Source: an uncultured Oxalobacteraceae bacterium (GTDB lineage Bacteria; Pseudomonadota; Gammaproteobacteria; Burkholderiales; Burkholderiaceae_D). From it: 64,000 nucleotides of DNA. The notes under the pieces are model-generated. The model saw nothing but the letters and a program-made list of their open reading frames with translations, had not been told where the DNA came from and searched no databases. The position numbers and the translations under genes are program-made. Location of the stretch: positions 1 to 64,000 of the forward strand of contig CAITOF010000050.1 in the NCBI GenBank assembly GCA_903893945.1. The letters run 5' to 3'. Positions 953 through 15,234 of the stretch are shown piece by piece (position 1 is the stretch's first letter; every line of letters starts with the position of its first letter).

Positions 953-975
953 CAGGCTTATCGCTTATAAGCCTG
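953..975. terminator. Inverted repeat between convergent genes, possible bidirectional terminator
   Basis: CAGGCTTAT and ATAAGCCTG form a perfect 9-bp stem around a 5-base loop. The hairpin lies just after the deacetylase stop and includes the stop codon of the converging binding-protein gene. There is no T-run on either side, so intrinsic termination is plausible but not certain. Confidence 0.45.
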
Positions 976-2137
976 ACTTGAATTTTGAATACACGCGCGT
1001 TGCCAGTCGTTTGGTTTCCGGTTCCAGTACCTGGATCGTCACCATATTTTTGATGTCCGCATCGCTTAAAAAAAGAGTCTTATCCTCGAGCAGTTCTTTC
1101 CGGATGAATTTTCGACTGGCCAGATTGGGCGAGGCATATGACACCTTGTTGGTCAAGCCGGCCTGCACCTCGGGACGCATAATGTAATTCATCCACAACA
1201 GGGCGTTTTCAGGGTGCGGTGCATCGACCGGGATCGCCATGGCCTCATACGAGAGCACAGCGCCCTTCCTGGGCAGCAGTGTCACGATTTCATGCCCGTT
1301 TTTTGCTGCGATCGCCCTTCGGCGTGCGACATTAATGTCACCGGACCAGCCGATGGCAACACATATTGCGCCATTGGCCAGATCATTGATATATCCGGTA
1401 GTGCTGAACAGGGTGACATAGGACCGGATTTTCAGCAGCAGTTGTTCGGCAAGTGCATAGTCGGACGGCGTGTTGGAAAACGGATTTTTGCCCACATAGC
1501 TCAATGCCGGCGGCAGAATTTCAGATGGTGCATCAAGGAAGGATACGCCGCACGATTTCAGTTTTGAGACGTATTTCTCATCAAATACCAGATCCCAGGG
1601 ATTGTCAGGCATAGGCAACTTGCCGAGCGCGGCCCTGACTTCAGCGGCATTGATGCCTACGGTGGTATAACCCCACAGCCACGGAACCAGATAATCGTTG
1701 CCGGGATCCAGTTTGGCAAGCTGCGATTCAATCGCCGGATCAAGATTGGATAAATTGGGCAACCGGCTTTTATCGATTTTTTTTAACAGCCCGCCTTTGA
1801 TCTGCATGCTGGCCCAATTCGCCGACGGGACCACGATGTCATAGCCGGTTTTTCGAAGTGCCAGTTTTGCATGCAGAATTTCATTGCTGTCAAAGTTGTC
1901 ATAATGCACCTTGATCCCGTATTCTTTTTCAAAATTGCTTATCGTGTCTGAACCTATGTACTCAGACCAGTTATACACATTGAGTATTTTTTCTTCCGGC
2001 GCTACCGTTGCCGCCTCAACCTGCAGTGCCAGGCCATCCATCACCAGCGCGACGCACAGCAGCAGCAAGCCGTGTCGGATCCGGCTTTCGCGCCTGACGG
2101 ATGTTCCGCCTTGATCTTCAGTCCCGCTTTTTTTCAT
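965..2137 (-). CDS. Periplasmic spermidine/putrescine-type binding protein
   Basis: This is a secreted solute-binding protein of the PotD/PotF group, which captures polyamines in the periplasm for an ABC importer. The frame opens further upstream, but the ATG at 2137 is chosen because GGAG lies about eight bases before it. A basic start and hydrophobic segment (LLLLCVALVMDGLAL) form the signal peptide. The mature protein begins with the family hallmark LNVYNWSEYIG. About 390 residues is usual. No ABC permease or ATPase is nearby, so it must use a transporter encoded elsewhere or act otherwise. It lies directly downstream of the TonB receptor gene on the same strand, suggesting cotranscription. 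The ligand could be putrescine, spermidine, agmatine or a related cation. Confidence 0.85.
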   Translation of the reverse strand: MKKSGTEDQGGTSVRRESRIRHGLLLLCVALVMDGLALQVEAATVAPEEKILNVYNWSEYIGSDTISNFEKEYGIKVHYDNFDSNEILHAKLALRKTGYDIVVPSANWASMQIKGGLLKKIDKSRLPNLSNLDPAIESQLAKLDPGNDYLVPWLWGYTTVGINAAEVRAALGKLPMPDNPWDLVFDEKYVSKLKSCGVSFLDAPSEILPPALSYVGKNPFSNTPSDYALAEQLLLKIRSYVTLFSTTGYINDLANGAICVAIGWSGDINVARRRAIAAKNGHEIVTLLPRKGAVLSYEAMAIPVDAPHPENALLWMNYIMRPEVQAGLTNKVSYASPNLASRKFIRKELLEDKTLFLSDADIKNMVTIQVLEPETKRLATRVYSKFKSGL

Positions 2138-2158
2138 GATTCGCTCCAGGGCATGCAA

Positions 2159-4579
2159 TTAAAACTTGGCAGACAGACTTATTCCCAGGGTTCTGGGTTC
2201 AATACGATAGATTTCACCCAGTGTCGACTGCACGATGGGACGCTGAATCACCTGATTATCATTAAGCAGATTTTTCACGAACAACGACACCTCCCATTTG
2301 TCCCAGTTTAACCCGGTACTGGCATCGACGGTGTTGTATTCAGGGCGGTTAAAATCCGGATTGATTGCGCCATTTGGCAGCATGGCAAATCCGCCGTGAC
2401 TGTCTCCGGTCCAATGCACTGCTGCACGGACAAACCCGTAGTAGTCATCACTCAGATTAAAGTCATACTGGCCGGTCAATGCCACGTTAAACCGGGGCAC
2501 ACCGGCAATCGCGGCTCCCGCAACAGCCCCGACAACCCCGGCATCGGCCCCATCGCTGTTGTCCAGGGTTGCGTGTGTCACACCACCGGCCAGGCCGATC
2601 AATACGCTGGAAATCGGCTTCACTTTTAATTCGATCTCAGCGCCATAGGTGGTCGCATCCCCCACATTGACGTCGTAGTCAAAATCACACGGCAACACGA
2701 GATCCTGCTGCATGTTTTTCCATTTTACGTAAAAAAGCGATGCATTCAATGCCACGCGGTTGTTCAGGAAACGGGATTTATCCCCCAACTCGTAACTCCA
2801 CAGCGAGTCAGCGGCATAACTGAGCGGATTCGGTGTTAGCAAATGGCATAACCCCTGTGGAATCGGTGGATTGGTTCCTCCTACCCGGAAGCCTTCCGCG
2901 GCCGATGCAAACAGGGTATCGGTCGGCGTTGCTTCCCAGATCAGCGATAGTTTGGGTGTTGATTTTGAGCCACTGGTACCTGAGCTGTTTTCTGTCGTTC
3001 CACCGTTATAGAACAGGCTCTGGTTGTTGGTAAATTCAGCGTCGGCGCGCACATAGCGCATTCCCATCGTGGCATGCAGTGTCGGCATGAAATAGTAGTT
3101 CAGTTCGCCAAAAATCGATTCCTGCCTGTTGTGATAACTGTAGTTGCCATGATAGGAAACATTGCCCGGAAATCCGATTGGCAGAGCATTGGCCAGTACG
3201 GTCGGATCGGTTGGGCTTACCCCAAACGCAGCGAACGTGGCGTTCAAGCCCAAAATCGGGTCACTCTCGATAATCGTCGTGCTTTCATTGGCATAATAGG
3301 CGCCGACCATCCAGGTGACCGGTGACAGGGATGGATCATAAGGTTTGGACGCAAACCGCAGTTCCTGCGAAAATTGCGCGACCTGGTTTTCCAGTTGCAC
3401 CTGGGAGGGTAACGCCATTATTGCAGCAGATAAGGAAGGATTGTTGATTATGTAGCCGGACAGTTGAACACTGTTGATAAATGAGCCGTCCTGGGTACGA
3501 TCAAAATTGCGTTTGAAATAACTGGACACGGACGTCAGATCACCTTCATTCATTCCATAATTGACCGTCAGACTCGGCACCAGCAGTTTATCGACGCCCG
3601 GCTCGCGGACCTGCTTGTTGGTTTCATATTTATTGAGTGGAATACCGGTTGCTTCACCACTTATCAGTATTTGCGAATACGACACATCGGTATCACCGGT
3701 ACTGACTTTCTGGTAAAACACAGCGGGCGTAATGGTCAGGTCTTTGGTGGGGGACCACTTCAGGGCGAGCCGAATGACCGAATCATCCTGCCAGTTGATC
3801 CCGTAATTCGTGACAGAACCGGTGTCATTGACCTGGTTGATATACCCGCCCTGATGTCCGCCCTGGACGCCAAACCGCAGGGCAAGTTCATTGAGAATCA
3901 ATGGCTCATTGACAACGACATTGGCCGTGTACCCGCCCTCGCCACCCTTGACGCTGGATACCTCGGAATAAAATGAAGTTTCCTGCTCTTTCAGGTTGGG
4001 CTGGTTGGTGATGAACTTGAGCGTTCCGCCCATGGAACTGGCGCCGTATAATGTTCCCTGCGGACCGCGCAATACCTCGACCCGATCCAGATCAAAAAAT
4101 TTCGGTTCCGCGCTTCCCATGCTGTACGCATTGGCGACTGTCAGCGATATATCATCCACATAAATACCCACCGTGGCCGAGCCCGCCGTGGAACTCACAC
4201 CACGAATTTCAATATTGGACAAACCGGGGCCATCGCCGGCATCGCCACCGCCGCCACCGCCAGAAAAGGAGATATTGGGTATTGAACGGGTAATGTCGGC
4301 GTAATCGCCAATATGCTGGGCCGCGAGCTGATCGCCGCCGATGACACTGATGCTGATGGGGACTTTACTGACGTCTTCCTTGCGTTTCTGCGCGGTGACA
4401 ACGACCGACTGAATTTCGGCAGATTTCTCTATCGGCGATTTCGTCACTGTTGCACTGGTCGCATTTGCGCCCGGTGTCGCTGCCTCCTGGGCGCCAGCGC
4501 CAGACGCAGCCACAGATGACAACAGTGTTGATGCTACTGCAAGGACAGCTTTCAGGTGTTGTGGTAGAAAATGCTTCAT
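2159..4579 (-). CDS. TonB-dependent outer membrane receptor
   Basis: This 806-residue protein is a TonB-gated beta-barrel importer. It has an N-terminal signal region (MKHFLPQHLKAVLAVASTLL), then the plug start VVVTAQKRKEDVSKVPISIS, typical of the large receptor group common in sphingomonads and marine proteobacteria. Further plug hallmarks are VEVLRGPQGTLYGASSMGG and IEIRGV. The barrel runs to a C-terminal Phe (LGISLSAKF). The ATG at 4579 follows GAGGAAA at good spacing. It lies between the agmatinase-family gene and the PotF-like gene on one strand, so it probably imports a polyamine or guanidino compound, or a larger molecule containing one. That ligand is inferred from context only. A 95-base gap separates it from the upstream gene. 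Confidence 0.88.
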   Translation of the reverse strand: MKHFLPQHLKAVLAVASTLLSSVAASGAGAQEAATPGANATSATVTKSPIEKSAEIQSVVVTAQKRKEDVSKVPISISVIGGDQLAAQHIGDYADITRSIPNISFSGGGGGGDAGDGPGLSNIEIRGVSSTAGSATVGIYVDDISLTVANAYSMGSAEPKFFDLDRVEVLRGPQGTLYGASSMGGTLKFITNQPNLKEQETSFYSEVSSVKGGEGGYTANVVVNEPLILNELALRFGVQGGHQGGYINQVNDTGSVTNYGINWQDDSVIRLALKWSPTKDLTITPAVFYQKVSTGDTDVSYSQILISGEATGIPLNKYETNKQVREPGVDKLLVPSLTVNYGMNEGDLTSVSSYFKRNFDRTQDGSFINSVQLSGYIINNPSLSAAIMALPSQVQLENQVAQFSQELRFASKPYDPSLSPVTWMVGAYYANESTTIIESDPILGLNATFAAFGVSPTDPTVLANALPIGFPGNVSYHGNYSYHNRQESIFGELNYYFMPTLHATMGMRYVRADAEFTNNQSLFYNGGTTENSSGTSGSKSTPKLSLIWEATPTDTLFASAAEGFRVGGTNPPIPQGLCHLLTPNPLSYAADSLWSYELGDKSRFLNNRVALNASLFYVKWKNMQQDLVLPCDFDYDVNVGDATTYGAEIELKVKPISSVLIGLAGGVTHATLDNSDGADAGVVGAVAGAAIAGVPRFNVALTGQYDFNLSDDYYGFVRAAVHWTGDSHGGFAMLPNGAINPDFNRPEYNTVDASTGLNWDKWEVSLFVKNLLNDNQVIQRPIVQSTLGEIYRIEPRTLGISLSAKF

Positions 4580-4625
4580 GTCGGATTTCCTCGTGCGTTT
4601 GGCAACTTTATGTACAGCTCCGTAA

Positions 4626-4651
4626 GGACGTCATCAACGTCCGGTTTTTTT
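4626..4651 (+). terminator. Hairpin plus T-run facing the plus strand, between two minus-strand genes
   Basis: GGACGT and ACGTCC form a 6-bp stem with a CATCA loop, followed by GG and seven T on the plus strand. This is the shape of an intrinsic terminator for plus-strand (antisense) transcription leaving the receptor gene. Read on the minus strand the stem is followed by TTACGG, so it should terminate the ureohydrolase transcript poorly. Confidence 0.4.
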
Positions 4652-4674
4652 CAGCCACTGAACCCCTGCCACAC

Positions 4675-5643
4675 TTACACTTTTCTGGCGGCACATTTCT
4701 GGTTGCGCAATACACACAGCAGGTCAGCGCCTATGTGCGCCGCTGCCAACGCCGTGATATCGCTTTGATCAAAGGGTGGCGCCACTTCGACGATGTCCAT
4801 ACCCACCAGGTTCACCGGCTGCATGCCGCGAATAATATGCAGGGCCTGTGCCGAACTCAGTCCGCCGGCGACCGGTGTCCCGGTTCCCGGGGCAAACGCC
4901 GGATCCAGGCAATCGATATCAAAGGTTAAATACGACGGTCTGGTACCGACAATCGACAGGATTTTTTCCAGTGTCGCCTGCGCGCCATGCGCATGCACCC
5001 ACGGCGCATCAATAATATGAAGGCCCATAAAGTCGTCATTCCAGGTCCGGATACCCACCTGGACAGAGGTCGCGGGATCAATCAGCCCTTCTTTCACCGC
5101 TTTATAGAACATGGTGCCGTGATTCAGCGAATCCGGGTTATCGTCCGGCCAGGTGTCACAGTGCGCATCAAAGTGAATCAGCGACAGCGGCCGGCCAAAT
5201 TTTTCAGCATGCGCCTTTAATAACGGGTAGGTAATGTAGTGATCACCGCCAAAGGTCAGCATTTTTGCCCCGCTGGCCAAAATGCCGCGAGCGTGTTCCA
5301 CAATGGTATTGCTGATCGTCATGGGATTATGAACGTCGAGCCAGCAGTCGCCGTAGTCGATGACTGACAGTTCATCAAACGGATCAAAACCCCACGGGAA
5401 TGCGCACAATTCGGACAACTGGACGCTGGCGGCCCGAATTGCCGCCGGTCCCAGGCGTGCACCGGGACGAAATGTGGTGGCCAGATCGAGCGGCACGCCC
5501 GAAACGACCACGTCTACCCCGCTCAGATGGCGTGTATAGTTGCGCCTCATGAAACTTAATGCGCCCGCATAGGTATTTTCCGGACAACTTCCATAAGTTG
5601 ACTTGCGCCGGAAAGCGCTATCACCCGAAACGTCTGAATTCAT
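4675..5643 (-). CDS. speB: Agmatinase-family ureohydrolase
   Basis: A binuclear manganese ureohydrolase that splits a guanidino compound into urea and an amine (agmatine to putrescine in true SpeB). Metal motifs are GGDHYITYP, DAHCDTW and TFDIDCLDPAFAPGTGTP, the complete His/Asp set of the family. The ATG at 5643 follows AAGGAG at ideal spacing, giving 322 residues, normal length. Guanidinobutyrase and guanidinopropionase share these motifs, so the substrate is uncertain. Neighbouring PotF-like, TonB receptor and PuuB-like genes support a role in polyamine or guanidino catabolism. Its promoter is bracketed by dyad boxes beside a divergent TetR gene. Confidence 0.85.
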   Translation of the reverse strand: MNSDVSGDSAFRRKSTYGSCPENTYAGALSFMRRNYTRHLSGVDVVVSGVPLDLATTFRPGARLGPAAIRAASVQLSELCAFPWGFDPFDELSVIDYGDCWLDVHNPMTISNTIVEHARGILASGAKMLTFGGDHYITYPLLKAHAEKFGRPLSLIHFDAHCDTWPDDNPDSLNHGTMFYKAVKEGLIDPATSVQVGIRTWNDDFMGLHIIDAPWVHAHGAQATLEKILSIVGTRPSYLTFDIDCLDPAFAPGTGTPVAGGLSSAQALHIIRGMQPVNLVGMDIVEVAPPFDQSDITALAAAHIGADLLCVLRNQKCAARKV

Positions 5644-5674
5644 CTGGTTCTCCTTTGGCGGTTCATTTTTTTGC

Positions 5675-5685
5675 ACAACAGTTGT
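5675..5685. promoter_or_regulatory. Dyad box 1, candidate TetR operator
   Basis: ACAACAGTTGT is a perfect 5-1-5 palindrome immediately downstream of the -10 element of the ureohydrolase promoter, covering the expected transcription start. A related box with the same core CAACAGTT lies at 5710-5719. The divergent TetR-family gene at 5835 is the obvious binder; this is inference. Confidence 0.55.
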
Positions 5686-5714
5686 AATATATAAAAATGA
5701 CGTTATGGTGTCAA
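5686..5714 (-). promoter_or_regulatory. Sigma70-type promoter of the ureohydrolase gene
   Basis: On the minus strand TTGACA (5714-5709) is followed after exactly 17 bases by TATATT (5691-5686). This near-consensus promoter reads toward the ATG at 5643 and probably drives the ureohydrolase, TonB receptor and PotF-like genes. Both flanks carry CAACAGTT-core boxes, as expected for repression. Confidence 0.7.
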
Positions 5715-5719
5715 CAGTT
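5710..5719. promoter_or_regulatory. Dyad-like box 2, candidate TetR operator overlapping the -35
   Basis: GTCAACAGTT shares the core CAACAGTT with the perfect palindrome at 5675-5685 and overlaps the TTGACA -35 element of the minus-strand promoter. The two box centres are about 35 bp apart, between three and four helical turns. Confidence 0.45.
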
Positions 5720-5834
5720 ATTTTTAAAGGTTCGGCCGACCTGTTCAGTGTTATTTTTCTGTTACGTAAAGCGACAAAGCGTGAGTTGCTCAGTTACAAT
5801 ATGTCTGCAATTTTTCTACGGAGATCAAAAAACC

Positions 5835-6449
5835 ATGCCTCGCATCATTGACCACGACGCTGAACGTCGACGCATTGCCAAAGCAACGTGGGAAGTTCTG
5901 CAACAACAGGGGCAGGACGCCCTGACTGTGCGCAATATTGCCAGGCAGGCCGGCTGTACCACCGGCACGCTGTCGCATTATTTCAGGAATCGTGGCGAAC
6001 TGGTTGCGTTTTCCTACGAACTGGTCACCACCGAAATGATAGAAATCATCAACCGGAAAATACCCAAAATAAATCGTGGTCTGGCCCGGTTCCGCGCATT
6101 ACTGGAACTGCTGATTCCCAAAAAACCGAAAAATGACCAGTATGAAATTGCCGTCACCATCTCATCCTGGGTTTTTGCGCTGAGCGACCCCGAGATCGCC
6201 ATACAGCACAGGAAAAATTACGCGCGCCTGCGTGCCATTGCCGCCGGATTTATCAGGGAAGCGATAGAAATAAAAGAGATGTCTCCCGATACGGTTCCTG
6301 AAGACATTGGTGACATGATGATCTCATTTGCCGACGGGTTGTGTGTGGCCATGATGATAGAAAAAAACCTGTTCCCCTACAAGCGGTGCACCCTGCTGAT
6401 CGATCAATTCATGCACGGATTATTGAAATCACCCGTCGACAAAAAATAA
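5835..6449 (+). CDS. TetR/AcrR-family transcriptional regulator, BetI-like
   Basis: A DNA-binding repressor of 204 residues. The N-terminal helix-turn-helix is clear: TVRNIARQAGCTTGTLSHYF near residues 36-55, followed by the usual RGELVAF. The C-terminal ligand domain resembles the BetI-type group. The frame extends upstream, but the ATG at 5835 follows CGGAG and starts the normal domain (MPRIIDHDAERRRIAK). It is divergent from the ureohydrolase gene; the shared region holds two CAACAGTT-core boxes around the opposing promoter. It therefore probably represses the polyamine genes and responds to a polyamine-like ligand, and may regulate itself. The convergent PuuB-like gene follows. Confidence 0.85.
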   Translation: MPRIIDHDAERRRIAKATWEVLQQQGQDALTVRNIARQAGCTTGTLSHYFRNRGELVAFSYELVTTEMIEIINRKIPKINRGLARFRALLELLIPKKPKNDQYEIAVTISSWVFALSDPEIAIQHRKNYARLRAIAAGFIREAIEIKEMSPDTVPEDIGDMMISFADGLCVAMMIEKNLFPYKRCTLLIDQFMHGLLKSPVDKK

Positions 6450-6478
6450 AGCCCGGGCGCAAAACGTCGCCGATACGC

Positions 6479-7774
6479 TTATAAAAAATCGAGTGTGCGG
6501 TAATACAGCATGCCCAGTGCATATAGCGGTTGTCGCAGCCACTTGCCGCCCGGGAAAGGCATGTGGGAGTAGGCCGCAAACATGTCAAGCCGTTCGGGTT
6601 TTCTGTCGACCGCTTCGGCGACTATCTTGCCCATCAGGTGGGTCGGCGCGACACCGTGTCCGGAATAGCCCTGCGCATAAAAAATGTTGTCGGATAATCG
6701 CCCCACCTGCGGGATACGGTTCATGCTGATGCCGATCTGACCGCCCCAGGTGTAATCAATTTTCACATCAGCCAATTGCGGAAACACCCAGAGCATTTTT
6801 TTACGCATGGTTTCTGTAATATCGCCGGGCGCCAGGCCGGTGTAATTGCAGGCACCACCAAACAGCATGCGGCCATCAATCGAAATTCTGAAATAATCGA
6901 GTGCCCAGCGCAGGTCACAGACCGCCAGCGACGAATTCATGACCGTTTTCGCCCGATCACCCAGCGGCTCGGTCGCGATGATAAAACTGGACGCCGGCAG
7001 ATTGCGGCTCGACAGCTCCGGAACCAGATCGCCAAGATAGGCATCGCCGCAGACCACAACGGAATTGGCGCGAACCAGACCCTGTTCGGTGTGCACTTCA
7101 GGTAGCTGTCCGCGCACTATTCGGGTGGCTCTGCTGTGTTCAAAAATTCGGGCACCCAGTCGCGCGGCCGCCGCCGCTTCTCCCACACATAACTTTAACG
7201 GATGCAACTGGCCAAAGCCTTCATTATATAATCCGCCCAGATAGCGATCCGAATGGATCATGGTTCGTAATTCGTCGCGCGGCACCAGCCGCATTTTGTA
7301 CGGATAACCTTTGTCCTGCTGACTCTTCAGGGTTTCGGCAAACGATGTCATATGGCGTGGTTTCAGTGCGACGTCACAATAGCCGAACTGCAGATCACAA
7401 TCGATATGGTATTTTTCGATGCGCTGCTTGACAATTTCAACCGCCTCAACGCCCATGCGCCATGCCGCTGCGACGCCCTCCCTGCCAAACTTTGCTTCGA
7501 ACGTTTCAGGTTCGGTGGACAGACCGCCAATCAGTTGTCCCCCATTTCGACCGGTAGCTCCCCAGCCTATCCGGTTTGCTTCAACCAGAACCACACTGTA
7601 ACCTTTCTCGACCAGATGCAGTGCCGTCGACACGCCGGAAAAACCGCCACCGACCACACACACGTCTGCATCCACGGTATCCTGCAGGGACGGATACACG
7701 GTATGCGTGCCCAGCGTCGCGGCATAATAGGAAGCAGTATGTTCCCGGGTTTCTTTAAGAGGACGTAGTAGCAT
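6479..7774 (-). CDS. puuB: FAD-dependent amine oxidase, gamma-glutamylputrescine oxidase-like
   Basis: A flavoprotein oxidoreductase of the DAO superfamily, 431 residues. The ADP-binding motif VCVVGGGFSGVSTALHLVEKG is near residue 38, followed by the PuuB hallmark GWGATGRNGGQ. The C-terminal YAQGYSGHGVAPTHLMGKI is typical of PuuB/OrdL-like enzymes. In the Puu pathway PuuB oxidises gamma-glutamylputrescine to the aldehyde, but puuA, puuC and puuD are absent here, so it may act on another amine. The ATG at 7774 has only a weak ribosome site. It converges with the TetR gene and is not covered by the dyad boxes seen upstream of the ureohydrolase. Confidence 0.78.
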   Translation of the reverse strand: MLLRPLKETREHTASYYAATLGTHTVYPSLQDTVDADVCVVGGGFSGVSTALHLVEKGYSVVLVEANRIGWGATGRNGGQLIGGLSTEPETFEAKFGREGVAAAWRMGVEAVEIVKQRIEKYHIDCDLQFGYCDVALKPRHMTSFAETLKSQQDKGYPYKMRLVPRDELRTMIHSDRYLGGLYNEGFGQLHPLKLCVGEAAAAARLGARIFEHSRATRIVRGQLPEVHTEQGLVRANSVVVCGDAYLGDLVPELSSRNLPASSFIIATEPLGDRAKTVMNSSLAVCDLRWALDYFRISIDGRMLFGGACNYTGLAPGDITETMRKKMLWVFPQLADVKIDYTWGGQIGISMNRIPQVGRLSDNIFYAQGYSGHGVAPTHLMGKIVAEAVDRKPERLDMFAAYSHMPFPGGKWLRQPLYALGMLYYRTLDFL

Positions 7775-7898: not shown

Positions 7899-8540
7899 TC
7901 ATACATGCAGAGCCATTGTTTCACAGGTCGGTGTTTCACAGAGCGCCTGCCCTGTCATTAAAACGATCGACAAGGCTGGATGGGGCACGACATAACAAAC
8001 GTCTGAGGCACGATAGGCATGACTTTGCGTGAGCTTGTAACGCGCTTCCCGGGTACTCCACAACTGATAAAACGCACGCACCCTGTTTTCTTCCAGCTGA
8101 CGTTTAAACCATGCATTTTCCTCGGCCGGAAAGGTGTGTTCACTGATCGCCGCCAGATTGCGGTTTGCGTCCAGCCATTCAATATCCAGTCCGACCGGTG
8201 TTGAATGACTCATGGCACAGGCAACCCAGTTGGCTGTATGCGACAGGCTGAAATAGGGTGCGACGGCGACGCCTTCTATGTGTACGAGCGGGGCCTGACC
8301 GGCCCGTTCGGTCAAAATGACCCGGTCCTCGCTGACCAGCAGCGCCCGTGTCAGTAATTGGCGCAGCAGATGCCGACCGACCAGAAATTGTCGTTGCCGC
8401 AGCGGACGCGAAAATCGCTGGTAGCGCAATAATTCAGCCGCAGTCAACCGGGACTCCAGCGCGGCAATCTGTGCCTGGCCAATCAGGTCGATGTCTGCCA
8501 GATAGATTCCTGCCGAATTTCGCACAGTATTTTGATCCAC
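7899..8540 (-). CDS. 4'-phosphopantetheinyl transferase
   Basis: Sfp-type transferase that loads the phosphopantetheine arm from CoA onto carrier proteins, here presumably the two ACPs of the same cluster. The core motifs are FSLSHT near residue 91, VGLDIEWL (metal-binding Asp and Glu) and FYQLWSTREARYKL, which matches the usual W-x-x-K/R-E-A motif. At 213 residues it is of normal size. The start is a GTG at 8540, one base after the TAA of the upstream ketosynthase, implying translational coupling. It is the last gene of the aryl-polyene operon; a 124-base gap follows before the PuuB gene. Confidence 0.88.
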   Translation of the reverse strand: MDQNTVRNSAGIYLADIDLIGQAQIAALESRLTAAELLRYQRFSRPLRQRQFLVGRHLLRQLLTRALLVSEDRVILTERAGQAPLVHIEGVAVAPYFSLSHTANWVACAMSHSTPVGLDIEWLDANRNLAAISEHTFPAEENAWFKRQLEENRVRAFYQLWSTREARYKLTQSHAYRASDVCYVVPHPALSIVLMTGQALCETPTCETMALHV

Positions 8541-8541
8541 A

Positions 8542-9786
8542 TTAATCCAGTTTTTTGAAAATTAATGATGTATTTATGCCACCAAATGCAAAATTATTAC
8601 TCATAATGTAATTGCAGTGCAATTTTCTTGCCTCACCCCTGATGTAATCGAGCTCGCCGCAGGCCGGGTCAATCTGGTCGAGATTGAGCGTTGGTGCAAA
8701 CCAGCCTTCCCGCATCATTTCAATACTGAGCCAGGCCTCAAGGGCACCGCATGCGCCCAGCGTGTGCCCCATGTAACTCTTTAATGAACTGACCGGCACA
8801 TGCGCCCCGAACTGGCTGGCGGTTGCGTGCGATTCAGCAATATCGCCCTGGAGGGTTCCGGTTCCATGCGCATTGACATAGCCGATCGCGGCAGGTGCAA
8901 GGCCGGCGTCGTCCAATGCCAGTTGCATGGCGGCTTTCATGGTCGCCGGATCCGGCTGCGTGACGTGACTGCCGTCGCAATTGGTACCATAACCGACAAC
9001 TTCGGCCAGCATTTTTGCGCCGCGCTGTCTGGCATGATCCATCTCCTCAAGTATCAGACTGCATGCCCCTTCTCCTATGACCAGACCGTCCCGGCCGGCA
9101 TCAAAAGGACTTGGCGTCACGGCGGGCGTATCATTTTTTGTGCTGGTCGCAAAAAGCGTATCAAATACGGCCGCTTCGGTAGCACACAATTCGTCGGCGC
9201 CACCGGCAATCATGGCAATCTGGCGCCCGCTGCTGATGGTTTCATACGCATAACCTATGCCCTGACTGCCCGAGGTGCAGGCGCTTGAGGTCGTGATGAT
9301 GCGTCCGGTAATGCCCAAAAAAACACCGATGTTCACCGGTGTCGTGTGCGACATCATTTTGATATAGGTGGTCGCGTTGATTCCTTTGGTCGAACGCTCC
9401 TCGATCATGCGCCCAAAATCACCGATTGCCGAGGGCGTACCGGTTGATGATCCGTATGAAATGCCCATCTGTCCGCTTTTTATGAGGGGGGAATCAAGCA
9501 GCCCGGCATCCTGCAGGGCCAGTTCACTGGCCCGTGTCGCCATCAATGCGACGCGCCCCATACTGCGCATGGACTTTCGATTGTATTTATCTGATAAGGC
9601 AAAGGGAGCCGCCGGCGCGCCCAGCCGGGTATTCAGTCCGTCGTAACCGGACCAATCCGGCATGGCGACCACCGCATTCTGACGGGCCAGAAGCCGCTCA
9701 CGCACTGTCGGCCAATCGTTGCCGAGTGGGCTGATGCCGGACATGCCCGTCACCACCACCCGACGCCGGGTCAGCCCCCTGTTCAC
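8542..9786 (-). CDS. apeR: Beta-ketoacyl-ACP synthase of the aryl polyene pathway (ApeR-like)
   Basis: A condensing enzyme that extends the acyl chain with malonyl-ACP. It has 414 residues, normal for FabF-type enzymes. The catalytic triad is intact: Cys in SSACTSGSQGIG, His in VNAHGTGT and His in KSYMGHTLGACG. The C-terminal NNFAFGGINTSLIF is typical. The start is GTG at 9786, overlapping the ketoreductase stop by four bases. Its place at the end of the order KS-dehydratase-ketoreductase-KS matches apeO-apeP-apeQ-apeR of the E. coli and Xenorhabdus aryl-polyene clusters, which is why the symbol is used. In those systems ApeR works early as a homodimer. Confidence 0.88.
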   Translation of the reverse strand: MNRGLTRRRVVVTGMSGISPLGNDWPTVRERLLARQNAVVAMPDWSGYDGLNTRLGAPAAPFALSDKYNRKSMRSMGRVALMATRASELALQDAGLLDSPLIKSGQMGISYGSSTGTPSAIGDFGRMIEERSTKGINATTYIKMMSHTTPVNIGVFLGITGRIITTSSACTSGSQGIGYAYETISSGRQIAMIAGGADELCATEAAVFDTLFATSTKNDTPAVTPSPFDAGRDGLVIGEGACSLILEEMDHARQRGAKMLAEVVGYGTNCDGSHVTQPDPATMKAAMQLALDDAGLAPAAIGYVNAHGTGTLQGDIAESHATASQFGAHVPVSSLKSYMGHTLGACGALEAWLSIEMMREGWFAPTLNLDQIDPACGELDYIRGEARKLHCNYIMSNNFAFGGINTSLIFKKLD

Positions 9787-10517
9787 GCCAGACCGCCATT
9801 CACGGAAATGACCTGACGAGTGACATACGCGGCGTCCTGACTCAGTAAAAAGCTGACCACCGCGGCGACCTCTTCCGGTTTTCCGGTACGACGTGCCGGT
9901 ATCAATTTAAGCAGGTCCTCCATCGGTGCGCCAGTCACCATGTCAGTATCAATCAGTCCGGGGGCCACGCAATTGACCGTAATTTCACGGCTGGCCAGCT
10001 CAAGGGCGAGCGCTTTTGTCGCACCAATAATACCGGCCTTGGCAGCACTGTAATTCACCTGGCCCCGGTTACCGACAAGTCCGGAAACCGACGCAAGCGT
10101 TACAATACGCGCAGGCTGCTTGCGGCGCACCATGGGCATGATCAGGGGATTGAGCACATTATAGAATCCGTCAAGATTGGTGTGCAGCACGATGTCCCAA
10201 TCGTCACCCGACATGGCGGGGAAGACATTGTCGCGCACCACCCCCGCATTGCAGACCACCCCATAATAACAACCGTGCTGCTCGACATCAGCCAGCAGCA
10301 CGCCTGACGCGGCATCGCGCTGGCTGATATCGAACTGCAGCACACGACACGAGCGGCCCAGTTCAATGATGCTGCTGGCAACCTGCTCGGCTTGTTCCCG
10401 CTGGGTCCGGCAATGCAGCACGATGTCATAACCATCCCGGGCCAGACGCAACGCAATCGCCTTGCCGATGCCGCGCGATGATCCGGTGATCAATACAGTT
10501 TTACTGGTAGAGGTCAT
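9783..10517 (-). CDS. apeQ: 3-ketoacyl-ACP reductase (ApeQ-like)
   Basis: A short-chain dehydrogenase of the FabG group that reduces the 3-keto group with NADPH after each condensation. The cofactor motif is TGSSRGIGKAIALRLA at the N-terminus. VCNAGVVRDN, the catalytic Ser in TLASVSGLVGNRG and the YSAAKAG motif (Tyr-x-x-x-Lys) follow. The ATG at 10517 gives 244 residues; a TTG at 10529 is an alternative, and neither has a strong ribosome site. Its stop overlaps the start of the next ketosynthase gene by four bases. Position and family match ApeQ. Confidence 0.88.
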   Translation of the reverse strand: MTSTSKTVLITGSSRGIGKAIALRLARDGYDIVLHCRTQREQAEQVASSIIELGRSCRVLQFDISQRDAASGVLLADVEQHGCYYGVVCNAGVVRDNVFPAMSGDDWDIVLHTNLDGFYNVLNPLIMPMVRRKQPARIVTLASVSGLVGNRGQVNYSAAKAGIIGATKALALELASREITVNCVAPGLIDTDMVTGAPMEDLLKLIPARRTGKPEEVAAVVSFLLSQDAAYVTRQVISVNGGLA

Positions 10518-10525
10518 TGTCAGGT

Positions 10526-11047
10526 TCAATCTGTTTCGGGTGGATCTGTCTTCAGGGGGTTATTGTTCCGCAAAAACTGCTGTACATCATCCGGTTGAAA
10601 GGCAGTCAGGGTGGCTGCCGCCAGGACATCATTTTCAGGGGCCCCGGCATGGCAGATTTTACAGTCAAACGCCCCAAGGCCGTTGGCGTGTTTGATGACC
10701 TGGGTGACTGAAATCTGCAACCTGGACCCCAATGGAAAACCGTTACAGTGGCTCTCATAATATCGTGTACCAAGTAAAAAACCCACTTTTACCGGTTTGT
10801 CCTGTGTCCATGCCTGGTAGCCTTCAAATGCCGCCATGGCCTGCGCCATCATTTCAATGCCCACCCACGCCCCCACCGACCGACTGTCGTCGTCGTAAAA
10901 GAGATGGTCTGACCTGATCGTCACCTCGGCACAAAGCGATACCGCATCCACAGAAACAACCCGGTCCAGCAGGGCCATTTTGTCCCGGTGGGGAATAAGG
11001 GATGAGATATCAGGCAACGACTCGCTTTGCGATTCAGTGATGATCAT
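10526..11047 (-). CDS. apeP: Hotdog-fold 3-hydroxyacyl-ACP dehydratase (ApeP-like)
   Basis: A small hotdog protein that, paired with an ApeI-type partner, removes water to create each new double bond of the polyene. The signature SLIPHRDKMALLDRV is near residue 15, and GAWVGIEMMAQAMAAFEG forms the central helix. The ATG at 11047 gives 173 residues and overlaps the preceding ketosynthase reading frame by 14 bases; a longer frame upstream is probably not used. In characterised systems ApeP and ApeI form a heterodimer. Here the ApeI-like domain is fused to the ligase encoded at 19261. Confidence 0.83.
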   Translation of the reverse strand: MIITESQSESLPDISSLIPHRDKMALLDRVVSVDAVSLCAEVTIRSDHLFYDDDSRSVGAWVGIEMMAQAMAAFEGYQAWTQDKPVKVGFLLGTRYYESHCNGFPLGSRLQISVTQVIKHANGLGAFDCKICHAGAPENDVLAAATLTAFQPDDVQQFLRNNNPLKTDPPETD

Positions 11048-12236
11048 GCGTCTTTCCGAAAAGTAGCGCTGCGTTCGATCCGCCAAAAGCAAACGAAGTA
11101 CTTAACACCCATTGCACGGGGCGGTTTAACTGCAATCCATGCTCAACCAGATTCAATACCGGCAAGGCAGGATCATGACAGCCATCCCAGCGGTGAGGCG
11201 GTAATTTCCCCTGGTCGTTTTCCTCCTGCATCACCAGCCAGCACAGTGCCGCTTCGATGGCAGAAGCAGCGCCCAGGGCGTGGCCGGTAAACGGTTTGGT
11301 CGAGCTGACGGCAACCTCAGGACCGAATAAATCATGCAGCACCCGTGACTCCATTGCATCATTCTGTACGGTCGCCGTGCCGTGCATATTGATATAATCA
11401 ACCTGCTGCGGTGCTATCTGGGCCCGTTGCAATGCCTCGGTGATGGCCCTGCGTGCCCCTTTCCCTTCCGGATCCGGTGCCGACATATGATGACCGTCGG
11501 ACGATTCGCCCCAACCGAAAAGGGCAATCGGCGATGAATTTTTCGACATCAGAAACAGGGCCGCACCCTCGCCGATATTAATGCCGTTACGATGGACACT
11601 CAAGGGATTACAGACCTGTGCACTGACTGATTCCAGTGCCGTGAAACCGGCGACCGTAAACGCGCAGAGCGAATCGACCCCGCCACAGATAACGGCATCG
11701 CACAGTCCCATTTTTATCAGTCGTGCGGCACTGGCAAACGATTTGGCACTGGAACAGCAGGCGCTGGAATGGACATACGCGGGTCCGCTGATCTGGAGTT
11801 CCGTGGCCAGCATCAGGGCAGGCGAGCCCATTTCCTGCTGCGCATAATGAAATCCGGCCGGCAGGACACCTTGGTGCAGAAAATGATGGATCGCCCGCTC
11901 CGTGCCGGCTATGCCCGAGGTACTCGTACCAATAATGACGCCAATCCGGTCCCGGCCAAACTGGTCAATCGCCGCATTCACCGCCGGACGAATCTGCGCC
12001 AGTGCTGCCAGGGCCAACTGGTTATTTCTGCTGTTGTGCTGAATTGGCCATTGCTGCATAGCCGGCAATTGCGATTCGGACTGGTCGTCCAGTCTGCCCA
12101 GAGGCAATAGCCGACCCGCTGACCATGCATCCGTCATTTGCACGCCGCTTTGATTGCGGTGCAAGAGTCGATCTCTGACTGCTGCCCGCGAATTTCCCAG
12201 TGCGCAGACAATGCCACATTCGTTCAGGTAAAACAT
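11034..12236 (-). CDS. apeO: Beta-ketoacyl-ACP synthase, chain-extending (ApeO-like)
   Basis: A second condensing enzyme, 400 residues, more divergent than the one at 8542. The active-site Cys lies in HSSACCSSAKS, with His in INMHGTATVQND and His in KPFTGHALGAAS, so it should be catalytic. In known aryl-polyene systems ApeO pairs with the chain-length factor ApeC, and the ApeC-like protein encoded at 22339 would be its partner. Gene order (first of the O-P-Q-R block) supports the call. The ATG at 12236 lies 25 bases after the DUF3261 gene. Confidence 0.85.
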   Translation of the reverse strand: MFYLNECGIVCALGNSRAAVRDRLLHRNQSGVQMTDAWSAGRLLPLGRLDDQSESQLPAMQQWPIQHNSRNNQLALAALAQIRPAVNAAIDQFGRDRIGVIIGTSTSGIAGTERAIHHFLHQGVLPAGFHYAQQEMGSPALMLATELQISGPAYVHSSACCSSAKSFASAARLIKMGLCDAVICGGVDSLCAFTVAGFTALESVSAQVCNPLSVHRNGINIGEGAALFLMSKNSSPIALFGWGESSDGHHMSAPDPEGKGARRAITEALQRAQIAPQQVDYINMHGTATVQNDAMESRVLHDLFGPEVAVSSTKPFTGHALGAASAIEAALCWLVMQEENDQGKLPPHRWDGCHDPALPVLNLVEHGLQLNRPVQWVLSTSFAFGGSNAALLFGKTHDHH

Positions 12237-12261
12237 AAATAGTTATATTATTGCAATAATT

Positions 12262-12825
12262 TCAGTTATCGGGCTGGGATTGGATGGTCAAATCGTAGTG
12301 GTAACGCAAATTGACTAGTTTAACTGTTCCAGACCATCGCGGCATCTCACTGTAGGAAATTTGGCAAATAATCCTGTCGTCCAGACTCACGACACGTTCC
12401 AGTCCGTTATCCTGTATCGACCAACCGGGAGGCAGTGCCCGTCGGATTGATTCGATGGGCCACAAGGTCAGTTGCAGATCCTCCAGAATTTCTTGTTCCC
12501 GAACCTGGGACGGTACCATCACGTGACGCCAGGTCGTCAGATTTTTTCCATCATAATGCAGACTTAAAATACGCTGGCCAAAAGCCAGTCCCACCAGCTG
12601 TAACCGGTTCTCATCAACTTCGAGTGCCGTATCCAGTTCATCCGTTTTGCCGTCGCGATGAATGAGCAGATGCTGCTGCAGCGCGATTGAAGCCCCCAAC
12701 TCGGCCGGCGCCAGACGCAGGCCGGTTCGCGCTCTGCTGTCACCCACCTTGTCGCGCGGCTGCGGCGTTGTCATGCAGGACACCAGCAGCAGCACAATCC
12801 AGATCAGCAGCACTCTCAGGCGCAT
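12262..12825 (-). CDS. DUF3261-type lipoprotein of the aryl polyene cluster
   Basis: A predicted lipoprotein of 187 residues. The ATG at 12825 is chosen because ACGGGG precedes it and a short lipoprotein signal begins there (MRLRVLLIWIVLLLVSC, Cys at residue 17 in a lipobox). The rest is soluble and shows no catalytic motif. DUF3261 proteins are regular members of aryl-polyene clusters, beside the exporter and LolA-like genes. A role in moving or anchoring the glycolipid-like product at the outer membrane is plausible but unproven. Confidence 0.72.
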   Translation of the reverse strand: MRLRVLLIWIVLLLVSCMTTPQPRDKVGDSRARTGLRLAPAELGASIALQQHLLIHRDGKTDELDTALEVDENRLQLVGLAFGQRILSLHYDGKNLTTWRHVMVPSQVREQEILEDLQLTLWPIESIRRALPPGWSIQDNGLERVVSLDDRIICQISYSEMPRWSGTVKLVNLRYHYDLTIQSQPDN

Positions 12826-12879
12826 ACCAACCCCGTCGCAACACGTCGTGCTGCAGTATCTTTCCCGGTAAGACAAATG

Positions 12880-15234
12880 TCAGCGGCAGTCTTCATCTTG
12901 TTTTCTGAATAGCGGTACGATCATCCACACCAGTGCGACACCCATTAACAGAGTCAACCCGAACGCATGCAGCGCCGGTGTCTGGCTCAGCCCCAGCAAG
13001 CCAAACGACAGCAGGGTATTGACGGCGGACAGGCCAATCGCAAGCCAGGCGGTTTCCGGTCTGCCCTGCTTTTTTTCCTGCATGAAAATCCCATAATCAA
13101 CCCCGATACCCAGCAGCAGCATGAAGGCCAGCACATGAAACAGCTGTATGGGCTGATGCAACACGCCCAGCAGCGCCAGCGCAAGGCAACTGGCCAGCGC
13201 CGTGGGCGCCAGTATGCGCCAGGTGTCACGCCGGTAGCGCAGAAACAGCACGGCAAAAATAATGCCATAGGCACCTGTCAGCACCCAGCCCATGGTGATC
13301 CGGTATTGACGCAGAACGGCGGAAATTTCCGCCACTTTGTCAACCCACAGAACACCTTCCAGCGCATCGCCCGCATGCTGCACAGAGCTCAGCCCGGCCT
13401 GCGACAATCCGCGCAATGCGACGATACTGGCGTAACCTCCATTCACCGTGCCCAACCACAGATAACGCCACGGTTCACCGGCAGGTGAAGCGAGAAACTG
13501 GTCAACGGACAGAGGTTGCGCATACCGGTTTAAATCGTCGCGGGTTCTCGACACCCAATCGTTGTCTTCCCCTATCTGCTGAGCCAACTGGGTCAGTGCC
13601 GCGCCATCCCTGAACAATTTATCGTCCACCAGCTGACGGCGACGCTGTTGTGTCCGGTCAGACGGAACCCAATTGCTGATGGCCTGGTACCCCGTCATTT
13701 TCTGCTGCGCCACTAACGGATTCAGTCGCTGCTTGAGCAGCTCTTCCCGTTCCAGTACGCCCTGACGTGTTGCGGCGCGCACCAGATAAAACTGCACCGG
13801 TGTCGGCGCATCCAGAATTTTACCCAGTCTGATCTGATCGGCGATTAATCGTGGTGGTGAATTTTGCAGCAACCGTATATCGTCGTCCGATGTCAACTGC
13901 ACCAGGCCCAGCATGGTCACAAGCGCGGCAACCACCAGGACGAAAGCACTTCGTTTATCCGCCCCGGGCACCGGCCATCCGGACAGCGTGCCCTCATACC
14001 AGTGCACCAGCATTCCGCTTTTTAAAGGCACACGATCTGCCCATAACGGGAACCAGCACAGGACCGTCAACCAGGCGAAGATCAGGCCCAATGCCGAGAA
14101 TACCGCCATGCTGCGCAATCCGGGAAAAGGCGTAAAAGCCAGTCCGAGGTAGCCGATCACCGCCGCGAGCAGGGTTAGCGCCAGCGACGGCAGCAGGCGG
14201 CTTAGCAACTGGCGCGAACTGATCTGTTCATCGGCATTCAATCGGTGACACAGAAAAAAGATGCCGTAATCCTGCGCAACCCCGATCAGGCTGGCACCAA
14301 ACACCAGCGTCAACAGGTGTATCCGTTCAAACAGCAGCCAGCAGAGCGACAGCGAACCGAGGCATCCGATCACGATCGAAACAAAAATGAACAGTATCGG
14401 TTTCACGGAATGAAATGTCGCCCACATCAGCAGGATGATGCCGAGCAATGAACCCAGCCCGATCGTCCACACCTCCCCGCTGGCCTGCTCTGCGGCGGCG
14501 GCCGCGTGCAGCAGCACGCCCGCCGCAATGACATCGACATCGCTGCCCGCTGTCATCGCCCTGTTGCGCGCGGAATCCAGCACCCCGATGACCGCCTTCT
14601 GCGTCGGCATGGCAAACACGGAATCATGAATGACCAGCGACAGCAGCACGTAATGCCGCTCTCCATCATCCACAAACAACACGCCGTCACGCGGGCGTAC
14701 CGGTGACTCTTGCGAACGCTCCTGCACCCAGGAGGAAAACAGGCCAAACGGATCATCACGCCACAAGCCGGTCTTTGGTCCGGCAAACGGGCTGTACAAT
14801 TGTCGCAATGCTGTATCGACCCAGGCGGATGCGGGCAGGTTCTGCAGCCTGTCCTCCTGGTCACTCGCGATCAAATTCAACCTGTGCGGCTGAAATACGC
14901 CAAGCCAGTCCTGCTGCGTTTGCCCGGTCAGCGATGCAGCGCGGAGCAGTTCCGGGCGCATCGCCACGACGTCACCATATTCTGTCGCGGCCTGTCTGGC
15001 GACCGCCCAGTCTTTCGAACCAATCAGGACGATCACGCGCTGTTGTGCCGTGTCAACCATGTGTGTGAACGCCTGCTGCATTACCGGATCGAGCTTCTGC
15101 ACCGGCAGCAGCGCCATGATATCGGTATCGGGGGCGATTCGCTTGATCAGCCACAGATAGGCATTATGTCCGACTATCAGGCAAACAACCAGCGTCCATG
15201 CCATGGCGATCCGGTAGCTGGCGCGCTTGTCCAT
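12880..15234 (-). CDS. MMPL-family (RND superfamily) exporter
   Basis: A large inner-membrane protein of 784 residues with the duplicated RND layout: one membrane segment near the N-terminus, a periplasmic loop to about residue 250, five helices, then the pattern repeated. Each half carries a helix with an acidic motif (GVAQDYGIFFLCHR and GIGVDYGIFMQEKKQG), the proton-relay signature of MMPL proteins. Such exporters are constant members of aryl-polyene clusters and are thought to carry the lipid-linked polyene from the inner membrane toward the outer membrane. The ATG at 15234 follows the LolA-like gene by 11 bases. Confidence 0.85.
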   Translation of the reverse strand: MDKRASYRIAMAWTLVVCLIVGHNAYLWLIKRIAPDTDIMALLPVQKLDPVMQQAFTHMVDTAQQRVIVLIGSKDWAVARQAATEYGDVVAMRPELLRAASLTGQTQQDWLGVFQPHRLNLIASDQEDRLQNLPASAWVDTALRQLYSPFAGPKTGLWRDDPFGLFSSWVQERSQESPVRPRDGVLFVDDGERHYVLLSLVIHDSVFAMPTQKAVIGVLDSARNRAMTAGSDVDVIAAGVLLHAAAAAEQASGEVWTIGLGSLLGIILLMWATFHSVKPILFIFVSIVIGCLGSLSLCWLLFERIHLLTLVFGASLIGVAQDYGIFFLCHRLNADEQISSRQLLSRLLPSLALTLLAAVIGYLGLAFTPFPGLRSMAVFSALGLIFAWLTVLCWFPLWADRVPLKSGMLVHWYEGTLSGWPVPGADKRSAFVLVVAALVTMLGLVQLTSDDDIRLLQNSPPRLIADQIRLGKILDAPTPVQFYLVRAATRQGVLEREELLKQRLNPLVAQQKMTGYQAISNWVPSDRTQQRRRQLVDDKLFRDGAALTQLAQQIGEDNDWVSRTRDDLNRYAQPLSVDQFLASPAGEPWRYLWLGTVNGGYASIVALRGLSQAGLSSVQHAGDALEGVLWVDKVAEISAVLRQYRITMGWVLTGAYGIIFAVLFLRYRRDTWRILAPTALASCLALALLGVLHQPIQLFHVLAFMLLLGIGVDYGIFMQEKKQGRPETAWLAIGLSAVNTLLSFGLLGLSQTPALHAFGLTLLMGVALVWMIVPLFRKQDEDCR

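Follow-up and report, generated by a model that had tools for sequence, protein, structure and literature searches.

The window, a 64,000-nucleotide stretch of an uncultured Oxalobacteraceae genome (GenBank assembly GCA_903893945.1, contig CAITOF010000050.1, positions 1 to 64,000), carries a TonB-dependent outer-membrane receptor (TBDT) gene between an agmatinase-family gene and the gene for a PotF-like periplasmic binding protein. With moderate confidence, and on the basis of sequence comparison, we interpret these genes as an inducible operon whose products import agmatine, or a very close guanidino-polyamine, with TonB energy and then degrade it. The receptor would pull this ligand across the outer membrane, and the PotF-like protein would capture it in the periplasm and deliver it to a PotGHI permease, the genes for which are elsewhere in the genome. 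The agmatinase would then cut agmatine into putrescine and urea, and putrescine would be processed further by Puu, SpuC-like and Gab enzymes, whose genes lie on two other contigs, C113 and C98. A divergent TetR regulator may repress the genes until the ligand arrives, as AguR does in Pseudomonas aeruginosa. Within this scheme, we infer the identity of the ligand, the regulation and the use of a permease from elsewhere in the genome.

The strongest observation is that G004, another genome of the host genus, has an unrelated agmatine route at the same place around the TBDT. On its contig C12, aguA, aguB, the TBDT and PotF lie on one strand, the window counterpart being agmatinase, TBDT and PotF, and the two TBDTs are 68-69% identical. 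Agmatinase is one route from agmatine to putrescine; agmatine deiminase acting with N-carbamoylputrescine amidohydrolase is a separate one. Because the PotFs of the two loci fall in different clades, the receptor is the element most clearly common to them, and orthologous TBDT-PotF pairs are ruled out.

Genes of the window locus

The window is contig C50 of a 125-contig genome (G000). The original prediction of an agmatinase, a TBDT and a PotF-like protein on one strand, with a TetR regulator and a PuuB-like oxidase alongside, was borne out: all five genes are intact open reading frames (ORFs) with Pfam support. On the minus strand lie the agmatinase-family ureohydrolase (4675-5643; ORF 4675-5676, likely ATG at 5643), the TBDT (2159-4579) and the PotF-like protein with its altered pocket (965-2137; ORF 965-2158, likely ATG at 2137). 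The agmatinase and TBDT ORFs are separated by 95 nt and the TBDT and PotF ORFs nearly touch. The TetR gene is divergent (5835-6449, plus strand; ORF from 5697, likely start at 5835). Start sites of the agmatinase, PotF-like and TetR genes were chosen by eye as in-frame ATGs with ribosome-binding sites. The three minus-strand genes are probably co-transcribed under TetR regulation. Since the FAD-dependent oxidase gene (6479-7774, minus strand) is convergent with TetR, it is a neighbour that belongs to a separate, convergent transcription unit.

The agmatinase matched the Arginase family (PF00491) at 297.6 bits (cut-off 22) and passed both NCBIfam agmatinase models, NF002564 (462.3 bits; cut-off 302) and TIGR01230 (232.7 bits; cut-off 174.3). 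Among solved structures, its best match was 4dz4, a named agmatinase (570 bits), compared with 199 bits for the guanidinobutyrase 3nio. A Pfam scan of the locus genes found neither aguA nor aguB. The PotF-like protein matched SBP_bac_8 (PF13416; 81.3 bits, cut-off 27), and the TetR protein matched TetR_N (PF00440; 43.7 bits, cut-off 24) and the BetI-type C-terminal domain TetR_C_6 (PF13977; 48.1 bits, cut-off 27). The oxidase matched DAO (PF01266; 241.6 bits, cut-off 27.9); no NCBIfam model among the matches listed for it reached its cut-off, and its PuuB-like label comes from context and 44% identity to an oxidase on C113.

The TBDT exceeded the Pfam cut-offs for Plug (PF07715; 66 bits, cut-off 23.9) and TonB_dep_Rec_b-barrel (PF00593; 103.3 bits, cut-off 27). 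A TonB-box-like VVVTA was spotted by eye, and the receptor is predicted to draw energy from TonB in practice. Iron compounds are the best-known cargo of such receptors. The window TBDT shares the plug and barrel of siderophore TBDTs, and its plug resembles those of FyuA, PhuR, Cir and FhuA. It differs from siderophore TBDTs in missing the cut-off of the siderophore-receptor model TIGR01783 (124.2 bits; cut-off 223.5), which is nevertheless its best NCBIfam subfamily match, and in having no iron genes among the five locus genes and no Fur match in the window. The Fur search, a weak test, used a 19-bp E. coli consensus and allowed up to 3 mismatches.

Receptor family and its neighbourhoods

Searches that scored a limited number of candidates per genome found homologues of the window TBDT in at least 16 of 99 relatives (E ≤ 1e-30) and in at least 99 of the 392 family genomes sampled (E ≤ 1e-60). 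We examined stretches of up to ~22 kb around 77 TBDTs, including that of the window, and labelled a TBDT polyamine when a marker (identity of 35% or more across no less than half of the reference) lay within 8 kb. The markers GabT, GabD, PuuA-like, SpuC-like, AguA and AguB were themselves taken from neighbourhoods of the receptor family. The label applied to 17 of the 77 TBDTs and was absent from 60. On a quick LG+G4 tree, with SH-aLRT as the sole support measure and several branches flagged as long, the label required 9 changes, compared with a mean of 15.5 after shuffling, and none of 500 shuffles was as low.

The window TBDT fell in a seven-row clade (support 100), drawn from four genomes that all belong to the host genus, in which all seven members carried the label. 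The contexts were agmatinase and PotF in the window, aguA, aguB and PotF at G004:C12, and gabT-gabD-puuA-like-spuC-like genes beside the other five (G000:C98 twice, G002:C8, G003:C25 and G004:C1). The involvement of the TBDT in polyamine or guanidino catabolism, as originally proposed, is well supported in the host genus; the accompanying proposal of a larger conjugate as cargo found no direct support in the window. The possibility raised at the outset, that the receptor occurs elsewhere without such neighbours, proved true of the family at large, in which 60 of the 77 sampled TBDTs lacked a marker, and untrue of its own clade.

Similar arrangements were found in other genera. In G399, a family TBDT with 48% identity is divergent from guanidinobutyrase, aldehyde dehydrogenase, PuuB-like oxidase and potF/potG/potH genes, the guanidinobutyrase scoring 513 bits to 3nio and 209 to the nearest agmatinase. 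Co-directional orders were TBDT-potFGHI-puuB-amidohydrolase-puuA-like in G388, TBDT-puuD-puuA-like-spuC-like-potFGHI in G041, and puuA-like-spuC-like-potFGHI-puuC-TBDT-amidohydrolase-puuA-like in G354, whose TBDT has just 31% identity. We tentatively propose, with somewhat less than moderate confidence, a clade of TBDTs that bring in free small polyamines (agmatine, putrescine and related compounds) by energised uptake and recur beside the enzymes that degrade them (agmatinase, AguA/AguB, guanidinobutyrase, SpuC/Gab), in which the PotF pockets of two guanidino cases would have reached E39/S276/E278 separately. A polyamine ligand for the whole receptor family was considered and is unsupported, given the 60 of 77 TBDTs without a marker and the low marker count outside the host genus (7/58).

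The neighbourhoods also bear on the very unlikely explanation that the TBDT is a receptor for iron or another nutrient, located here by chance. The majority of unlabelled family TBDTs is in keeping with this explanation, as are family TBDTs that adjoin housekeeping genes (argS in L094, glyA in L004) and the siderophore model as best subfamily match. Same-genome controls argue against it. The Plug model found 31 TBDTs in G000, and a polyamine marker lay within 6 kb of the plug in 5 of the 10 best-scoring homologues of the window TBDT compared with 1 of the 21 others (Fisher P = 0.0075), the PotF of that one being also counted for a family TBDT on C42. In G004, the marker accompanied 3 of 5 family TBDTs and none of 23 others (23 examined of 34). 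Pooled, the counts were 8/15 for family and 1/44 for other TBDTs (P = 2.3e-5), and 5/15 versus 1/44 (P = 0.003) when only markers of the window and C113 were counted by hand. Some control stretches end at contig ends, in the family and the other group alike, and the C81 PotF lies near the 35% identity threshold. Since every one of the ten homologues scored in G000 was a match, the controls may include weaker members of the family. The uniformly labelled clade, the TBDT-polyamine operons of other genera and, for iron, the lack of a Fur-consensus match likewise stand against a chance placement.

Several other observations concern TBDTs. The window holds a second one (23726-24076, plus strand; Plug match), with no polyamine marker within 6 kb. 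At G004:C12, two more agmatine-deiminase-like genes (PF04371; L038 6983-8185 and 15687-16850) lie beside TBDTs; by eye their N-termini are export-like (twin-arginine, lipoprotein-like), and one protein is below the agmatine-deiminase cut-offs. In four genomes of the genus (L044, L046, L047 and L049), family TBDTs lie near uvrB and an AspAT-type gene, and in L044, L046 and L047 an APC-type amino-acid transporter adjoins the TBDT, which suggests another small nitrogen ligand for these receptors.

The PotF-like pocket and alternative ligands

The PotF-like protein is 44% and 46% identical to PotF and SpuD, respectively, in our alignment, and scored 369 bits against the NCBIfam PotF equivalog, below the cut-off of 636. 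With residues numbered as in E. coli PotF, checked against the available text of PMC8666671, W37, S38, S85, E185, W244, D247 and R254 are kept, whereas D39E, S87N, R91M, E184S, S226T, F276S, F277Y, D278E and L348I are changed. According to that text, D39, D247, D278, E185 and R254 each reach a conservation of 96% or more across its set of PotFs. The acidic pocket set D39, E185, D247 and D278 is therefore incomplete in the window protein, with E185 and D247 kept and D39E and D278E substituted.

We compared 42 distinct genome PotFs, 14 from the loci read and 28 more of the closest, leaving out L058 6-413, an incomplete PotF at the edge of its contig. E39 and E278, together with S276, occurred in two of the 42: the window protein and the G399 PotF, which lies near the TBDT and guanidinobutyrase. 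The window PotF groups with that of G237 (100/99), and window and G399 formed one group in 0 of 200 bootstrap trees. Both cases came to notice in hindsight and amount to a suggestion, not to proof. Some family TBDTs have in their vicinity a second PotF type (L052 3800-6442, L056 4085-5978, L057 4303-6174 and L053 11023-12159), which carries D185, W276 and either T or V at position 278; a BetI-like TetR gene adjoins it in L052, L056 and L057.

Several points weigh against agmatine uptake by the TBDT. The general assumption is that polyamines pass the outer membrane via porins, and agmatine is small enough to do so. The aguAB-linked PotFs retain F276 and D278, so the E39/S276/E278 pocket is not a general mark of agmatine; the separate clades of the window and G004 PotFs point the same way. 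Five of the seven clade members adjoin putrescine/GABA genes, their nearest context not being a guanidino enzyme. The guanidinobutyrase-like protein of G399 also passes the NCBIfam agmatinase cut-offs, so passing them is no proof of agmatine specificity. Beyond the host genus, 58 family TBDTs were sampled and the marker accompanied 7 of them, a frequency that did not exceed control (P = 0.67). When 1.5-kb flanks were searched with family TBDTs and our plug model, which other TBDT types could escape, TBDT-like sequence turned up at just 1 of 60 AguA loci; among the 30 closest PotF loci it turned up at 2, one being the window. Longer AguA stretches (L181-L201) held a Plug domain in 1 of 21 (L200), ~3.6 kb from the AguA gene, and the flanks and longer stretches together rule out AguA-TBDT pairing as a general rule. 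An AlphaFold2 model of the window TBDT (five-row alignment, L005 left out) was unusable at a pLDDT of 25.2.

Large or scarce ligands are the usual TBDT cargo, and the receptor could instead import a larger agmatine or polyamine conjugate, such as a plant hydroxycinnamoyl-agmatine, from which periplasmic or cytoplasmic hydrolysis would free agmatine for the agmatinase. F276S could widen the PotF pocket to suit such a ligand. Near family TBDTs we found seven distinct amidohydrolase-related proteins (reference, Pfam Amidohydro_3) with N-termini that are export-like by eye: L040 13832-15580, L041 11425-13251, L053 17756-19558 (the same gene as in L065), L064 7016-8797, L066 7357-9147, L093 16183-17943 and L112 10626-12425. 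Those of L040, L093 and L112 lie in polyamine neighbourhoods, and the polyamine operons of G388, G354 and G003 are among the sites; these neighbours are a possible hint of conjugate import. However, no conjugate hydrolase is present at the window locus, and PotF-type proteins of known structure bind free polyamines. We consider conjugate import unlikely, and no feature of the window requires it.

It is likewise unlikely that the cargo of the TBDT is a different short amine or guanidino compound (putrescine, 4-guanidinobutyrate or homoagmatine), with agmatine as one of several substrates of the module. The five clade TBDTs that lead gabT-gabD-puuA-like-spuC-like genes, the guanidinobutyrase paired with the G399 TBDT and the pocket changes that set the window PotF apart from 40 of the 42 compared would fit such a ligand, whereas the window enzyme is nearest to named agmatinases (570 versus 199 bits) and the G004 locus carries agmatine deiminase.

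Regulation, host pathway and relation to known systems

A promoter-like TTGACA-17-TATATT (5686-5714, minus strand; 11 of 12 consensus matches) lies upstream of the agmatinase, and directly past its -10 element is the palindrome ACAACAGTTGT (5675-5685), a candidate TetR operator. The related half-site CAACAGTT recurs at 5712-5719. Between positions 900 and 8000 we counted 9 sigma-70-like sites, that of the agmatinase being the best, which does not clearly exceed the shuffled mean of 6.6 (sd 2.6). A 9-pair hairpin (953-975), terminator-like on the plus strand only, separates the ends of the PotF-like gene and a convergent polysaccharide deacetylase gene (PF01522; 21-947, plus strand); terminator-like hairpin sites overall numbered 11, compared with 8.1 in shuffles. 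The TetR protein missed both BetI equivalog cut-offs (51.8 versus 118 and 50.2 versus 201 bits). A regulator common to other TBDT-PotF pairs was also considered and rejected, the BetI-like TetRs there being 18% identical over 196 residues or 28% over 54; at such low identity, the window TetR is a different regulator.

On C113 of the same genome, the order is potF-potG-potH-potI-puuC-puuB-puuD-agmatinase, this second agmatinase being 80-81% identical to that of the window. C98 carries two sister TBDTs ahead of gabT-gabD-puuA-like-spuC-like and, farther along, aguA-aguB-potF. The window region itself holds only the PuuB-like gene, and puuA, puuB, puuC and puuD do not occur together there. The absence of an ABC permease, puuA, puuC and puuD, as first noted, therefore holds for the window region but not for the genome, where C113 and C98 carry them (a puuA-like gene on C98; 185 bits against a cut-off of 650 when this family was scored via the G002 copy). 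The earlier idea of a non-standard pathway fails genome-wide, because the permease and Puu genes sit on other contigs. With these catabolic genes in place, the window locus is an additional, receptor-equipped module. The bacterium seems to be a relative of the soil genus Collimonas, which belongs to its family; G225, a genome of that family, has a TBDT identical to the one of C. humicola. Farther along the minus strand (7899-15234) lie phosphopantetheinyl transferase, ketosynthase-like and reductase-like ORFs and a large membrane protein gene, of which only the transferase was scanned; we take this set to be reminiscent of an aryl-polyene cluster.

The P. aeruginosa agu operon presumably has a neighbouring polyamine-binding protein and a porin. 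In its aguR-aguBA genes, the enzymes converting agmatine to putrescine stand beside a TetR-family repressor that is released by agmatine (PMC4287709), a direct parallel on which we base the proposed release of the window TetR by agmatine. That system uses agmatine deiminase and N-carbamoylputrescine amidohydrolase, with no TBDT described in the available text of PMC4287709, whereas the window has an agmatinase and a TBDT. The available text of PMC5343134 predicts TBDTs in the HypR (hydroxyproline) and HutC (histidine) regulons, so TBDTs for small nitrogen compounds are already known as a kind. As for the window TBDT, a small nitrogen ligand was proposed there from catabolic context, in that case a common regulon; the ligands and taxa differ. 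Among the top-ranked titles and opening lines of abstracts in the open-access literature searched, which leaves most subscription journals outside, no polyamine or agmatine TBDT was described.

If the proposed agmatine uptake is correct, TonB-driven uptake would extend to small cations and orphan TBDTs would gain a ligand class. It would also point to a means by which these bacteria compete for polyamines of plant, fungal or other bacterial origin that are present in traces.

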